Below the pieces are notes generated by a model. It made no database searches and was not told where the DNA came from. It saw nothing but the letters and a program-made list of their open reading frames with translations. From the NCBI RefSeq assembly GCF_030551255.1, contig NZ_CP130630.1:10663001-10727000 (forward strand): a stretch of DNA of 64,000 bases, written 5' to 3'. The position numbers and the translations under genes were made by a program. Positions 57,716 through 63,389 of the stretch are shown one piece after another; the first letter of the stretch is position 1, and each line of letters opens with the position of its first letter. The stretch comes from Streptomyces sp. NL15-2K. Its GTDB lineage: Bacteria; Actinomycetota; Actinomycetes; Streptomycetales; Streptomycetaceae.

Positions 57716-57917
57716 CTAGTGCCGCGGCAGGCAACGTTTGCCCGTCAAGGAGCGGCGTCCGGTGCGTGCTCTCGGCGTGCCGGGCGCAGGCCCTCGTACT
57801 GGATGTACTTGGGTCTGTGCCCGGTGCGGCGAGTGGGGGCACCTCCCACGCCTTTAGGGCAGTGGGGGAGCGTGCCGGGCGTCGCGACGGGGCAAACGTT
57901 GCCTGCCGCGGCACTAG
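57716..57917 (+). mobile_element. MITE-like element, copy 1
   Basis: A 194-bp body (57720-57913) with perfect 24-bp terminal inverted repeats beginning TGCCGCGGCAGG, bounded by CTAG on both sides (57716-57719 and 57914-57917). It has no coding capacity. Compared with copy 2 it carries about 33 extra bases around 57835-57870 (GTGGGGGCACCTCCCACG followed by a TTTAGGGCAGTGGGGGAG part), which look like another common Streptomyces short repeat inserted into it. CTAG targets with TA duplication are typical of IS630-family transposases, a possible helper. Confidence 0.8.
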
Positions 57918-59356: not shown

Positions 59357-59428
59357 CCGGACGTAGCGCAGAGGCAGTCGCGCCGCCTTCTCAGGGCGGA
59401 CACGCCGGTTCGAATCCGGTCGTCCGGA
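59357..59428 (+). tRNA. Unusual tRNA, anticodon CTC (Glu)
   Basis: A 72-base cloverleaf: acceptor CCGGACG/CGTCCGG (perfect 7 bp), TA linker, D-arm GCGC with loop AGAGGCAG, anticodon stem CCGCC/GGCGG with loop TTCTCAG (anticodon 59390-59392), 4-base variable loop ACAC, T-arm GCCGG-TTCGAAT-CCGGT, discriminator A. CCA is not encoded. Only three of four D-stem pairs form. Its body is nearly the same as those of the next tRNA and of the one at 62.3 kb, although their anticodons differ, and it does not look like the usual tRNA-Glu of Streptomyces. Confidence 0.82.
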
Positions 59429-59438
59429 CCGCGCGGGT

Positions 59439-59513
59439 GGGCCGGTAGCGCAGAGGCAGGCGCACTTCCATGGCATGGAGGACACGCCGGTTCGAATCCG
59501 GCCCGGCCCACCA
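59439..59513 (+). tRNA. Unusual tRNA, anticodon GGC (Ala)
   Basis: A 72-base cloverleaf plus encoded CCA (59511-59513): acceptor GGGCCGG/CCGGCCC, TA linker, D-arm GCGC-AGAGGCAG-GCGC, anticodon stem CTTCC/GGAGG with loop ATGGCAT (anticodon 59472-59474), variable loop ACAC, T-arm GCCGG-TTCGAAT-CCGGC, discriminator A. The G3:U70 pair that marks alanine tRNAs is missing (3:70 is G:C). It begins only 10 bases after the preceding tRNA and ends 27 bases before the ATG of the next gene, so all three may share one transcript. Confidence 0.87.
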
Positions 59514-59540
59514 CAGAGCGGCACGGACGGGCGGGGACAC

Positions 59541-60875
59541 ATGAGTGACGCGATCGGCGCGGAGGAGCTGGCCGCCTTCCACCGCACGGTGGGCAAACTG
59601 CGGGCGCTGCCCGCCGACGACCCGGTACGCCTGCGCGCCGAGCAGGTCGCCGCCTCCTTCGCCCGAGAGGGCCGGCTGCGGCGGCGAAAGACCCGCGGCG
59701 TCGAACTGTCCGCCGCTGACGCCGAGGGGATGGCCGCGACCGCCACCGGCGCCCGCGACCGGCGCGAGGACGCACCGCTGGCCCTGGAAGACGGCCGTAC
59801 CGGCGGGGTCTTCCGCAAGCCGCGCACCTGCTACGTCTGCAAGTCGCCCTATCGACAGGTCGATTCCTTCTACCACCGGCTGTGCCCCGAGTGCGCCGCG
59901 CACAACACCGCCCGCCGCGGCCTGAGCACCGACCTGAGCGGGCGCCGCGCACTGCTCACCGGCGGCCGGGTGAAGATCGGCTTCCAGTTGGCGCTGATGA
60001 TGCTGCGGGACGGCGCCGAGCTGCTGGTCACCTCACGCTTCCCGCACGACACCGTGCGCCGCTTCCGGGCCGAGGCGGGCAGCGAGAAGTGGCTCGACCG
60101 GCTGACCGTCCTCGCCGTCGACCTGCGCGACCCGCGTCAGGTGCTGGGCCTGTGCGAGGAGTTGCGGCAGGAGGGCGAGCCACTGGACATCCTCGTCAAC
60201 AACGCCGCCCAGACCGTGCGCAGGCCGCCCGAGTCGTACGCACTGCTCGCCGCCGGCGAGTACGAGGCGCTGCCCGAGGGAGCCCGCCGGGCGCCCGGCT
60301 TCGCGCCGCTGCGGATGCTGGAGTCAGGGGCGTCTTCCCTGCCCGTCGCGCTGCGCGAGGCCGACGAGGCCGGGCTGCTGCCCGACCCGTCCCCGGAGAA
60401 CTCCTGGTCGGCCCGGCTCGGCGACCTGGACCCGGCCGAGGTCCTGGAGACCCAGCTCGTCAACGCGCTCGCCCCGACCCTGCTGTGCGACCGCCTGCTG
60501 CCCCTGCTGCTCGCCTCCCCGCACCCGCGCCGGTACGTGGTCAACGTGACCGCCGTGGAGGGCCGGTTCGCCGTGCGCAACAAGATGGCCGGCCATCCGC
60601 ACACCAACATGGCCAAGGCCGCGCTCAACATGCTCACCCGCACCAGCGCCGCCGAACTCGCCGGGCAGGGCGTGCACATGTGCGCCGTCGACACCGGATG
60701 GATCACCGACGAGAACCCGGCACCGAAGAAGGCCCGGATGGCGGACGCGGGCTTCCGCACGCCGCTGGACGTGGTGGACGGGGCGGCACGCGTGTACGAC
60801 CCCATCGTGCGCGGCGAGGCCGGGCATCCCGTGTCCGGGGTGTTCCTCAAGGACTACCGGGAGGCGCAGTGGTGA
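59541..60875 (+). CDS. SDR-fold protein with N-terminal zinc finger, catalytic Tyr missing
   Basis: A 444-residue protein. Residues about 1-90 are helical and charged; a four-cysteine zinc finger follows (Cys97, Cys100, Cys115, Cys118; TCYVC...LCPEC). From about residue 131 it is an SDR Rossmann fold with glycine motif LLTGGRVKIG and NNAAQ. At the YxxxK site the sequence reads PHTNMAK, so the lysine is kept but the tyrosine is not. ATG 59541 lies 27 bases after a tRNA; the stop overlaps the start of the leucine-rich-repeat gene (GTGA). I know no function for this architecture; nucleic-acid binding through the zinc finger is possible. Confidence 0.8.
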   Translation: MSDAIGAEELAAFHRTVGKLRALPADDPVRLRAEQVAASFAREGRLRRRKTRGVELSAADAEGMAATATGARDRREDAPLALEDGRTGGVFRKPRTCYVCKSPYRQVDSFYHRLCPECAAHNTARRGLSTDLSGRRALLTGGRVKIGFQLALMMLRDGAELLVTSRFPHDTVRRFRAEAGSEKWLDRLTVLAVDLRDPRQVLGLCEELRQEGEPLDILVNNAAQTVRRPPESYALLAAGEYEALPEGARRAPGFAPLRMLESGASSLPVALREADEAGLLPDPSPENSWSARLGDLDPAEVLETQLVNALAPTLLCDRLLPLLLASPHPRRYVVNVTAVEGRFAVRNKMAGHPHTNMAKAALNMLTRTSAAELAGQGVHMCAVDTGWITDENPAPKKARMADAGFRTPLDVVDGAARVYDPIVRGEAGHPVSGVFLKDYREAQW

Positions 60876-62245
60876 GCGAGGAGCCGCAGGGGACGCCGGA
60901 GGGCTTCGCCGGTGTGCCGTACGTCGTGCCGCGTCCGCTCGCCGAACTGGGCCCGCTGCTCGACTGGTTGCGGGCCGGCCGCCCGGCCGGGGAGCGCCTG
61001 GACTTCACGGCCGGCACCGCCCTGCCCGACGGGCGCCTCGACCTGTGCAAGCAGGGACTCGGCGCGCGGGGCGCCGCCCTGGTCGCCGAGGCGCTGTCCC
61101 AAGGACCGTCTCCGGTACGGCACTTGCTGCTCGGCACCGATGCCCTGGGCGACGCCGGTGCCGCCGCCGTGGCCGGGACGGGCACGGCCGTCGAGACGCT
61201 CTACCTCGGCTGCAACGGCATCACCACGAACGGCGCCTGCCGGATCGCCGACCAGCTAAGGGCTTCTCCGCAGGCGCAGGCGCAGGCCGTCACCGGCGTC
61301 TGGCTCAAACGCAACCCGCTGGGCAGCGGGGGAGGACGGGCGGCGGCCGAACTCCTGGAATCCGCACGGTCGTTGCGCACTCTGGACCTGGTCCAGACCG
61401 GCCTCGACGCGGCGGGCGCCACCGTCCTCGCCGACGCACTGCTGGCGGCGGCCGCGGGCGGGCGTCGTATCGAGCGGCTCTTCGTCGGCGGCAACCCGCT
61501 GGGAGCAGCGGGTGCGGAGCCGCCTGCCGCGGTGATCGCCGCGGGCGCGATCGACGAACTGTACGTCTCGGCGGCCGGGTTGGGCGACGCGGGCGCGCTG
61601 TGCCTCGCCGACGCCCTGGAGCGGGCGCCGTACGGACGGCTCACCCGGCTGTCCGTCGCTAGTGCCGCGGCAGGCAACGTTTGCCCCGTCGCGACGCCCG
61701 GCACGCACTCTCGCCGCACCGGGCACAGACCCAAGTACATCCAGTACGAGGGCCTGCGCCCGGCACGGCGAGAGCACGCACCGGACGCCGCTCCTTGACG
61801 GGCAAACGTTGCCTGCCGCGGCACTAGCAACGGCATCGGACCGCGGGCGGCGGCCCGGCTCGTGTCGGCGGCGACCGCGGCCGGGGTCACCCTGCTGGAC
61901 CTCGGCCGGGTACGGGCGGTGGCGGTGCTTGGCGCGGCCGACAACCACATCGACCTGGCAGCCGCCGAGACGATCGCCGAGGCCCTCGCGGGCACGGCCC
62001 ACCGCCTCAAGCACCTCGTCCTCACCCACACCGGGCTGCGCAGCCGCGAGGCCCACCGTCTCCTCGACACCGCGCCCCGCGCCACCACGGCCACCCGCTT
62101 CGTGCTGGGCCGGGGCGTCGCAGCGAGCGTCAAGCGCCGCCTGGACGCGCTCAGCGCGCACGTGCCGGCCCCGACGGTCCCGGCCGACGTGGCGGCCGTA
62201 CGCAGCGTGCACCGGACCGCCCACGAGGAGCGGCCGGTTCACTGA
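60872..62245 (+). pseudogene. Leucine-rich-repeat gene split by a MITE
   Basis: Without the element the gene would encode 402 residues of ribonuclease-inhibitor-like leucine-rich repeats of about 28 residues (VRHLLLGTDALGDAGAAAVA, VETLYLGCNGITTNGACRIA, LRTLDLVQTGLDAAGATVLA and more). The insertion lies between SVA and SNGIG; removing the element and one CTAG copy restores the frame exactly. It adds 165 bases, 55 codons, but carries an in-frame TGA at 61796-61798, so translation gives 308 residues, the last about 46 from the element. GTG at 60872 overlaps the SDR stop, with GGGAGG upstream. A fragment could restart at GTG 61862. Confidence 0.85.
61659..61827 (-). mobile_element. MITE-like element, copy 2, inside the leucine-rich-repeat gene
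   Basis: A 161-bp body (61663-61823) with the same 24-bp terminal inverted repeats as copy 1 and CTAG at both borders (61659-61662, 61824-61827). Apart from one missing internal block it is almost identical to copy 1 in reverse orientation, indicating recent movement. The host gene is in frame on both sides, so the empty site can be read directly as GTCGCTAGCAAC. Confidence 0.88.
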
Positions 62246-62315
62246 GGCCTGTTCGGCGGATCAGGTCGCAGACGGGGGTCTGGCACGTACCTCTGCCCTA
62301 AGCTCTGCCTCAAGG

Positions 62316-62391
62316 GCGGGGTCGTAGCGCAGAGGCAGGCGCGCCGGTCTCCAGAACTGGAACACGCTGGTTCGAATCCAGCCGCCCCGCA
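62316..62391 (+). tRNA. Unusual tRNA, anticodon CCA (Trp), bulged acceptor stem
   Basis: It shares the body of the two tRNAs near 59.4 kb: TA linker, D-arm GCGC-AGAGGCAG-GCGC, T-arm GCTGG-TTCGAAT-CCAGC. The anticodon stem CCGGT/ACTGG has loop CTCCAGA (anticodon 62351-62353). The acceptor pairs as GCGGGG-CG with CGCCCCGC, eight pairs, only if T62322 is bulged; otherwise the stem is short. The variable loop has five bases. CC follows the discriminator A but CCA is not fully encoded. Either a degenerate copy or a tRNA with a special acceptor arm. Confidence 0.72.
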
Positions 62392-62411
62392 CCCTGACGG
62401 CACGGCGGCTG

Positions 62412-63389
62412 TCAGGCGCCCGCCCGGGCCGCCATCCGGGCCTTGCGCGCCGCCAGCTTCTCGTCGAACTTGGAGGCCTCCGAGTCCAGGCCGCTCATGT
62501 ACAGGCCCAGCTCCTCCTGCGCCTTGAGGCCCTCCGGGCCGAGACCGTCGATCTCCAGGACCTTCAGGAAGCGCAGGACGGGCTGGATGACGTCGTCGTG
62601 GTGGATGCGCATGTTGTAGATCTCGCCGATCGCCATCTGCGCGGCGGCCCGCTCGAAGCCGGGCATGCCGTGACCGGGCATGCGGAAGTTCACGATCACG
62701 TCGCGCACCGCCTGCATCGTCAGGTCGGGCGCGAGGTCGAAGGCGGCCTTCAGCAGGTTGCGGTAGAAGACCATGTGGAGGTTCTCGTCGGTCGCGATGC
62801 GCGCCAGCATGCGGTCGCAGACCGGGTCACCCGACTGGTGGCCGGTGTTGCGGTGCGAGACGCGGGTCGCCAGCTCCTGGAAGGCGACGTAGGCCACCGA
62901 GTGCAGCATCGAGTGGCGGTTGTCCGACTCGAAGCCCTCGCTCATGTGGGCCATCCGGAACTGCTCCAGCTTGTCCGGGTCCACCGCGCGCGAGGTGAGC
63001 AGGTAGTCGCGCATCACGATGCCGTGCCGGCCCTCCTCGGCGGTCCAGCGGTGCACCCAGGTGCCCCAGGCGCCGTCACGGCCGAAGAGGCTGGCGATCT
63101 CGTGGTGGTAGCTGGGGAGGTTGTCCTCGGTGAGCAGGTTCACCACCAGCGCGATCCGGCCGATCTCGGTGACCTTGGACTGCTCCTTCTCCCAGGCCTC
63201 GCCGTCCTCGAAGATGCCCGGGAAGTTCCGGCCGTCGCTCCACGGCACGTACTCGTGCGGCATCCAGTCCTTGGCGACGCTCAGGTGGCGGTTGAGCTCC
63301 TTCTCGACGACTTCCTCCAGCGCGTACAGCAGCCGGGCGTCGGTCCAGGCCGAGGACGGGCTGCCGAGGTGAGGGGAAGTGATCGTCAC
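62412..63389 (-). CDS. Acyl-ACP desaturase (DesA-like diiron enzyme)
   Basis: A 325-residue soluble diiron desaturase. Iron ligands are in TAEEGRHG (first EExxH) and ATDENLH (second), with additional Glu residues in the N-terminal helices. It introduces a double bond into acyl-ACP, altering membrane or lipid fatty acids. GTG at 63389. Three phased palindromes lie 56-101 bases upstream and probably bind its regulator. The gene ends 20 bases from the third unusual tRNA, convergent to it. Confidence 0.9.
   Translation of the reverse strand: MTITSPHLGSPSSAWTDARLLYALEEVVEKELNRHLSVAKDWMPHEYVPWSDGRNFPGIFEDGEAWEKEQSKVTEIGRIALVVNLLTEDNLPSYHHEIASLFGRDGAWGTWVHRWTAEEGRHGIVMRDYLLTSRAVDPDKLEQFRMAHMSEGFESDNRHSMLHSVAYVAFQELATRVSHRNTGHQSGDPVCDRMLARIATDENLHMVFYRNLLKAAFDLAPDLTMQAVRDVIVNFRMPGHGMPGFERAAAQMAIGEIYNMRIHHDDVIQPVLRFLKVLEIDGLGPEGLKAQEELGLYMSGLDSEASKFDEKLAARKARMAARAGA

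Follow-up and report, generated by a model that had tools for sequence, protein, structure and literature searches.

A private tRNA family with switching anticodons in a sporadic SDR/LRR gene module of Streptomyces

The 64,000-nucleotide (nt) stretch of the Streptomyces sp. NL15-2K genome analysed here (the window; NZ_CP130630.1, positions 10,663,001 to 10,727,000 of the forward strand) contains exactly three tRNA genes as detected by ARAGORN (59357-59430, anticodon CTC; 59439-59513, GGC; 62316-62393, CCA), which lie around a gene for a short-chain dehydrogenase/reductase (SDR) and a broken leucine-rich repeat (LRR) gene. All three are real tRNAs, and they share a core that is absent from the ordinary tRNAs recovered from the host genome. 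The tRNAs of this and related loci were assigned to upstream slots P1, P2 and P3 and a Trp slot, W, which were named by acceptor stem and D-stem after inspection of the data. The window genes, as delimited by ARAGORN, Rfam, the family alignment and a covariance model, are as follows.

59357-59428, + strand: family tRNA, slot P1, anticodon CTC (Glu codon GAG) at 59390-59392; acceptor stem CCGGACG:CGTCCGG, A73, CCA not encoded
59439-59513, + strand: family tRNA, slot P3, anticodon GGC (Ala codon GCC) at 59472-59474; acceptor stem GGGCCGG:CCGGCCC, A73 then CCA, no G3:U70, A32-U38 loop pair
62316-62393, + strand: family tRNA, slot W, anticodon CCA (Trp) at 62351-62353; acceptor stem with an unpaired base

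The three genes score 52.2, 56.2 and 44.6 bits with the Rfam tRNA model (gathering score 29). As a first-pass annotation made from the letters alone had reported, all carry the linker TA, the D-arm GCGC-AGAGGCAG, and ACAC before the T-stem followed by TTCGAAT, and this is borne out by the sequence, ARAGORN and Rfam. Its description of "one body" holds for this core (linker, D-arm with a GCG stem and AGAGGCAG, short variable loop and T-arm), for which a common origin is supported, but not for the acceptor stems, which differ (CCGGACG, GGGCCGG and GGGGTCG). The Ala-anticodon tRNA indeed lacks the G3:U70 mark of tRNA-Ala, having G3-C70 instead. The first two genes are adjacent as described, although the spacing is 8 bases by ARAGORN ends rather than 10. 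All three anticodons are preceded by U33. Folding as single strands gave z = -1.77, -3.53 and -0.46, so the Trp gene shows no clear folding on its own. The bulge in its acceptor stem (GGGG-T-CG against CG-CCCC; 62316-62393) is also present in most relatives' W copies. A promoter and terminator scan around the three genes found nothing, and nothing was expected.

The host genome (12.4 Mb, three contigs) yields 71 Rfam tRNA matches, and 54 ARAGORN entries from stretches taken from it served as the ordinary tRNAs for comparison. The best whole-length identities of the trio to these entries are 0.74, 0.73 and 0.75. With a covariance model built on the family, the trio scores 79.8-91.8 bits and the best other host tRNA 61.4, a gap of 18 bits. 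The commonest family T-arm is that of host tRNA-Glu-CTC. The exact core pattern matches 73 of 295 Streptomyces genomes (reversed control, 0) in a scan that needs exact motifs and misses variants. We therefore reject the possibility that this is a standard Streptomyces tRNA body, which the first-pass annotation had named as the finding that would undo its proposal.

The protein-coding part of the locus lies between the second and third tRNA genes.

59541-60875, + strand: SDR oxidoreductase, 444 amino acids (aa), with an N-terminal CxxC...CxxC zinc-ribbon-like stretch (Pfam adh_short and adh_short_C2; relatives)
60872-61660, + strand: first piece of the LRR gene, overlapping the SDR end (LRR_6 below its cut-off; full-length relative L037)
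61661-61828, no strand: inverted-repeat insert of ~168 bp that interrupts the LRR gene and is multi-copy in the genome (sequence, genome search)
61829-62245, + strand: second piece of the LRR gene (full-length relative L037; no Pfam match on its own)

The SDR start is 27 nt past the end of the second tRNA, and the corresponding gap has a median of 33 nt across 62 related loci. From this short spacing, the upstream pair and the SDR gene are probably one transcript, in line with the earlier suggestion that tRNAs directly preceding a protein gene may be cut from its RNA. The window locus is a reduced one: the LRR gene is broken by the insert, and the AAA+ and VWA genes described below are not at the locus. 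A VWA query found nothing genome-wide in this genome in a search that had no positive control. The insert occurs in about 40 places in the host genome, including a second copy of ~200 bp in the window (57716-57916). It should also be noted that Rfam ASdes matches at 62968-63035 on the + strand (65.9 bits), antisense to a fatty acid desaturase gene.

Relatives of the SDR were sought in one-genome-per-species contigs. The best 80 of 127 were retained, and all locus counts refer to these. ARAGORN detects tRNAs in 68 of the 80 loci (slot membership: P1 57, P2 51, P3 9, W 51), all with the same core; upstream anticodons are GCC, GCT, GCA, GGC, CGC, CTC, GTC and a few more, and the downstream one is CCA. 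In the fullest relatives, the locus begins with a large minus-strand protein that has no Pfam match, followed by two to four tRNAs, the SDR, the LRR protein, a minus-strand AAA+ ATPase with a pair of P-loop motifs, a minus-strand DUF2201 protein, the tRNA-Trp and a minus-strand protein of 283 aa, again unmatched in Pfam. In the DUF2201 protein, the metallopeptidase part is above the Pfam cut-off and the VWA-like part below. By our own count of the tblastn table, the AAA+ and DUF2201/VWA genes are both present at 35 of the 80 loci. Gene presence rests on tblastn throughout, as the gene finder used for listings often chose the wrong strand. A conserved 820-840-aa protein without a Pfam match is encoded divergently from the tRNAs at L037:2212-4743 and L087:2174-4630; we presume a resemblance to alpha/alpha-barrel glycosidases. 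At L193 and L194, a protein of ~1,130-1,150 aa follows the SDR or LRR gene.

The tRNAs and the module are linked. Among 73 loci with enough flank (seven short-flank loci were left out), at least two intact upstream tRNAs are present at 41 of the 46 with an LRR, AAA or VWA gene and at 5 of the 27 without any of these (Fisher, 1.5e-9, ignoring relatedness). The five module-less loci, of a kind that the first-pass annotation had named as counting against its proposal, mean that the link is strong but not absolute. Decayed tRNA copies, searched for at 30 of the 80 loci, occur mostly where the module is missing (L067, L085, L086 and L102), and also at the LRR-bearing L068. Base pairing across the family covaries (of all cells, 95.5% are paired, and 138 show double-sided changes), and in 500 shuffles the observed value was reached 0 times on three of five measures and 8 and 2 times on the other two. 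An artefact or pseudogene origin is therefore rejected for the family, though decayed copies exist. These data give good support to the view that the trio belongs to a private tRNA family in a sporadic module of tRNAs, zinc-SDR and LRR genes, with AAA+ and DUF2201 genes in full copies; a locus-specific role, as first proposed, is supported too. A limited literature search, judged by titles and the openings of abstracts, found no paper about SDR-linked tRNAs.

Within this family, anticodons switch frequently. On the SDR tree, P1 changed at least 26 times (53 loci, 6 states), P2 at least 19 times (47 loci, 8 states) and P3 at least 4 times (9 loci), whereas W shows no change, with Trp at all 51 loci. 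The tree was built with the frameshifted L108, which was dropped from the switching, discriminator and 32-38 tests, and with L039, whose excised stretch contains a stop. Where one slot holds two tRNAs, as at L101 with the only Arg anticodon, the locus was left out of the tree counts. The 115 upstream anticodons are for Gly (25), Asp (24), Glu (23), Ala (22), Ser (14), Cys (6) and Arg (1), so that 114 belong to six amino acids. A35 occurs in none of them, so that none corresponds to a hydrophobic NUN codon; a single Val anticodon was seen in another genome. Under a plain uniform single-base model, ~18 of 45 changes would be expected outside the six-amino-acid set (P for at most one outside, 5e-9), so the anticodon is not drifting freely. 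In 41 aligned P2 genes with a GAG D-stem, the variable columns are 34, 35, 32 and 38 and some paired stem columns; columns 9, 26, 31, 33, 44 and 45 are less variable, and C36 and A37 never change. Together, the sequences support well both the switching and its amino-acid constraint.

The loop around the anticodon follows these switches. A Watson-Crick 32-38 pair is found in 40 of 45 loops whose anticodons have G or C at both 35 and 36, but in 0 of 47 with U35 (Fisher, 6e-21, ignoring relatedness; 20 GCT/GCA members and 2 others were left out). The U35 loops have U-G (31), C-A (15) or U-U (1). Independent pairs on starred branches number 2 for P1 and 5 for P2 with none opposite, which is not significant alone (sign-test medians 0.5 and 0.06). 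Pairing of 32 with 38 is reported to make strong anticodons, GGC for example, bind the ribosome less tightly, while weak anticodons do better unpaired (PMC11194099). Host Asp and Glu tRNAs have C32-A38, and therefore two thirds of the family's Asp and Glu loops were not copied from the host. U33 is kept in 159 of 165 loops. We infer that this tuning is the best evidence for SDR-locus tRNAs working on the ribosome: positions 32 and 38 following the anticodon fits decoding better than a pure decoy or a protein-bound RNA, two roles that had been offered for the trio.

The acceptor end behaves differently. Slot P1 retains CCGG-type acceptor stems whether the anticodon is for Gly, Ser, Cys, Ala or Glu, and its discriminator agrees with that of the host tRNA of like anticodon in 10 of 53 cases, no more often than after shuffling (mean 12.0). 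The GCT (Ser) members have no long variable arm, the listed P1 GGC members share the CCGG-type acceptors, and the Ala members have no G3:U70; serine identity rests on the long arm and alanine identity on G3:U70 (PMC9976931). With a P1 acceptor end blind to the anticodon, we would expect the cognate enzymes not to charge at least the members with Ser, Ala and Cys anticodons, which supports the early doubt about cognate charging. In P2, the discriminator matches the host in 23 of 48 cases (17.9 on average after shuffling, P 0.06), and independent pairs lend no support. Cognate charging read from the discriminator was rejected for P1 and is weak for P2. Signs of a proline-accepting body are mixed: the slot ends are C1-G72 in P1 but mostly G1-C72 in P2, P3 and W, and the GCGCAG D-stem is common to host tRNA-Pro.

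It is quite improbable that these are ordinary supplementary tRNAs, charged by their cognate enzymes and kept for translation efficiency, as has been proposed for tRNA-Asp-AUC. That tRNA, from Streptomyces violaceusniger SPC6, is expressed with A34 unmodified and, in young S. coelicolor hyphae, restores a green fluorescent protein bearing six GAU codons, with GAU reading reported (PMC9262613). These reporter data speak for such a role, as do the P2 acceptor, which resembles that of host tRNA-Asp by eye, and the P2 discriminator, which leans the right way. However, the host already has tRNAs for these codons, the P1 acceptor and discriminator are blind to the anticodon, and frequent switching has no point in a redundant reader.

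Streptomyces tRNAs whose body and anticodon disagree are also known from the tRNAProX/ProRSx mistranslation system (PMC10365949), and the GCGCAG D-stem, found in host tRNA-Pro and tRNA-Ala-CGC, is a further likeness to tRNAProX. Unlike in that system, the family acceptor stems vary by slot and there is no second prolyl-tRNA synthetase (ProRS) in any of 55 genomes searched. A ProRSx partner was rejected, as carriers of the family are like non-carriers in having a single ProRS. For tryptophanyl-tRNA synthetase, 34 of the 35 carriers and 16 of the 20 non-carriers had two matches each; the second was sometimes below the family cut-off, and the count was not used as evidence.

Staphylococcal non-proteogenic tRNA-Gly genes are likewise extra, odd-bodied tRNA genes beside a normal set; they have one kind of anticodon and serve wall peptide synthesis, whereas the present anticodons vary and the loops look tuned for decoding. 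The present tRNAs could be dedicated aminoacyl donors, picked via their odd core, for a non-ribosomal reaction run by the module (peptide or cell-wall chemistry) with small, acidic and Trp building blocks. The restricted amino-acid set with one fixed Trp, the core shared across slots, and the SDR and, in some loci, the large uncharacterised protein are all consistent with this. Nevertheless, we consider it improbable: 32-38 tuning would be pointless off the ribosome, the Ser and Ala members lack the marks that seryl- and alanyl-tRNA synthetases need, and the Pfam matches of the 19 proteins scanned include no known aminoacyl-tRNA-using domain.

The family extends beyond SDR loci. Across a class-wide sample of 394 genomes, 20 carry the pattern, each of them in Streptomyces or in one other family, and the strict core pattern has no match in viral_contigs, which gives no support to a phage origin. 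A second subfamily comprises type 2a, a Trp-CCA type standing alone, and type 2b. Among 20 loci extracted, 17 are 2b; an LRR gene adjoins the tRNA at 17 of 17, and at 16 of 17 tblastn finds genes for LRR, an ankyrin-bearing protein, a MoxR ATPase and DUF2201 in order. Assigned by eye from the pattern-scan listing, 2a (31 genomes) and 2b (29) occur together in 16 genomes (Fisher, 1e-10, ignoring relatedness), echoing the Trp-plus-other pairing of the SDR locus, while SDR-type (30) and second-subfamily (44) genomes have only one in common (P 0.06). In the other family, L386 and L390 have tRNA(s), SDR, LRR, ankyrin protein, MoxR and DUF2201 in order, and L389 has tRNA, SDR and LRR up to the contig end; these three SDRs are 50-53% identical to the window SDR. 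With the SDR between tRNA and LRR genes, the L386/L390 layout joins the SDR and 2b layouts into one system. At L180 and L184, second-subfamily tRNAs (Cys GCA and an AGC type) stand directly upstream of an ankyrin-type protein with no LRR gene. The 2a Trp-CCA tRNAs at L181, L183, L188, L189 and L191 have no module nearby; those at L188, L189 and L191 are in the same place, near one gene that resembles exonuclease III.

The published tRNA-Asp-AUC is a 2b member: it has the D-arm/T-arm core of the window family, and a published 32-nt stretch, with the mutant base reset to native A, matches L242 exactly (PMC9262613). It lies upstream of LRR, PE-PGRS-named, MoxR ATPase and hypothetical genes; by position, the PE-PGRS-named gene is the ankyrin-bearing one here and the hypothetical gene the DUF2201 one. 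That work concerned one anticodon, 32 genomes and a four-gene neighbourhood, and the parts of the account covered name no SDR or Trp partner. Of its features (core upstream of LRR, MoxR and DUF2201), the 2b loci have all in 16 of 17 cases and the window has the core and LRR only. The window tRNAs belong to the other subfamily, with an SDR, U33 instead of C33, no AUC anticodon, intact anticodon stems and switching anticodons. For the gene cluster of the sister subfamily, relics of integrative elements that target tRNA genes have been suggested (PMC9262613). Such an origin, already disfavoured, is very improbable here, given that the tRNAs are whole and covary strongly, that each locus has two to four of them and that anticodon change is constrained.

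The module proteins also resemble those of MoxR-vWA ternary conflict systems, in which an AAA+ protein of the MoxR/dynein-related kind has a VWA-like partner (PMC7159879), as at 35 of the 80 SDR loci. DUF2201 is absent from the main text of that paper as covered here, the sole tRNA mention is in its reference list, and the window locus itself has lost the AAA+/VWA genes. The likeness raises the possibility of a defence module in which host tRNAs are cleaved or sequestered by invaders or rivals, the family tRNAs act as sensors, decoys or cleavage-resistant substitutes, and the LRR, AAA+ and metallopeptidase proteins respond, with anticodons switching in an arms race. Fast switching and sporadic spread (73 of 295 Streptomyces genomes and one other family in the class-wide sample) suit this explanation, as does the mix of AAA+, VWA, LRR and ankyrin proteins. 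On the other hand, PADLOC run on six module proteins matched the ATPase alone, and weakly (best 1.5e-6), no nuclease was noticed in the loci, and the loops are no simple host copies, with U32-G38 in 31 of 47 U35 members against C32-A38 in the host. On balance, tRNAs serving as bait or reserve seem rather unlikely.

Decoding-tuned loops combined with anticodon-blind acceptors make one reading the best single account, although we hold it less probable than all its rivals together: a private, decoding-competent and probably dual-identity (recoding) tRNA set in a sporadic LRR/AAA+ module, with charging hypothetical. The upstream tRNAs would be made with the SDR message, as their spacing suggests, and used on the ribosome, as suggested by a 32-38 pair that evolved with anticodon strength. 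The core or acceptor would set the amino acid and the anticodon would set which small-or-acidic codon is re-read, whenever the module is expressed. An artificial parallel exists in tRNAPro1E2, which joins a tRNA-Pro D-arm and a tRNA-Glu T-stem, on E. coli parts, with exchangeable anticodons (PMC11194099); the commonest family T-arm is likewise that of a tRNA-Glu (host tRNA-Glu-CTC), but the family D-loop is unlike that of host tRNA-Pro, making recognition by elongation factor P putative.

Several observations weigh against recoding. Re-reading codons as frequent as GCC or GAC ought to carry a cost. We noticed no synthetase gene at the listed loci, and a search of 55 genomes, including 35 carriers, gave one TIGR00409 match at E <= 1e-20 per genome, leaving no second ProRS. 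P2 discriminators tend towards G73 with Asp anticodons and A73 with Glu anticodons (Fisher, 0.011), which would fit ordinary charging. In the loop test, U-G was scored as not Watson-Crick though it is a wobble pair, and the 20 GCT/GCA members left out are split (11 paired, 9 not). C37, which is unusual in a decoding tRNA, occurs in 28 of 55 P1 loops (GCC, GCT and GCA anticodons; for example L036:4816-4887). The 2b tRNAs have C33 and a poorly paired anticodon stem (also noted in PMC9262613). Finally, the tree-corrected linkage of tRNAs and module is weak, with 6 starred independent pairs, 2.3 the same way and 0 opposite; this test had 71 rows (eight short-flank loci and L108 left out), a set slightly unlike the 73.

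A more speculative extension of the recoding reading, which we think unlikely, is a portable code-ambiguity device. The common-core slots would be charged regardless of anticodon, evolution would swap anticodons to redirect one, possibly non-standard, amino acid to small or acidic codons, always together with a UGG reader, and the SDR/LRR/AAA+/peptidase module, coupled by co-transcription, would recognise or clear the altered proteins.

Beyond what the first-pass annotation saw, the anticodons differ between species with only Trp fixed, the family occurs elsewhere, and positions 32 and 38 follow the anticodon. Ordinary orthologous tRNAs vary least at the anticodon, whereas in this family the anticodon ranks among the most variable parts of a largely frozen molecule. 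Should these tRNAs prove to be charged and used, they would amount to a natural experiment in codon reassignment that has run through dozens of switches and left visible loop tuning, and would offer a testable way into deliberate recoding in multicellular bacteria. Should they prove to be baits, their anticodon record would reveal which tRNAs come under attack in soil. In both cases, the published "new tRNA", tRNA-Asp-AUC, joins a much larger linked system.

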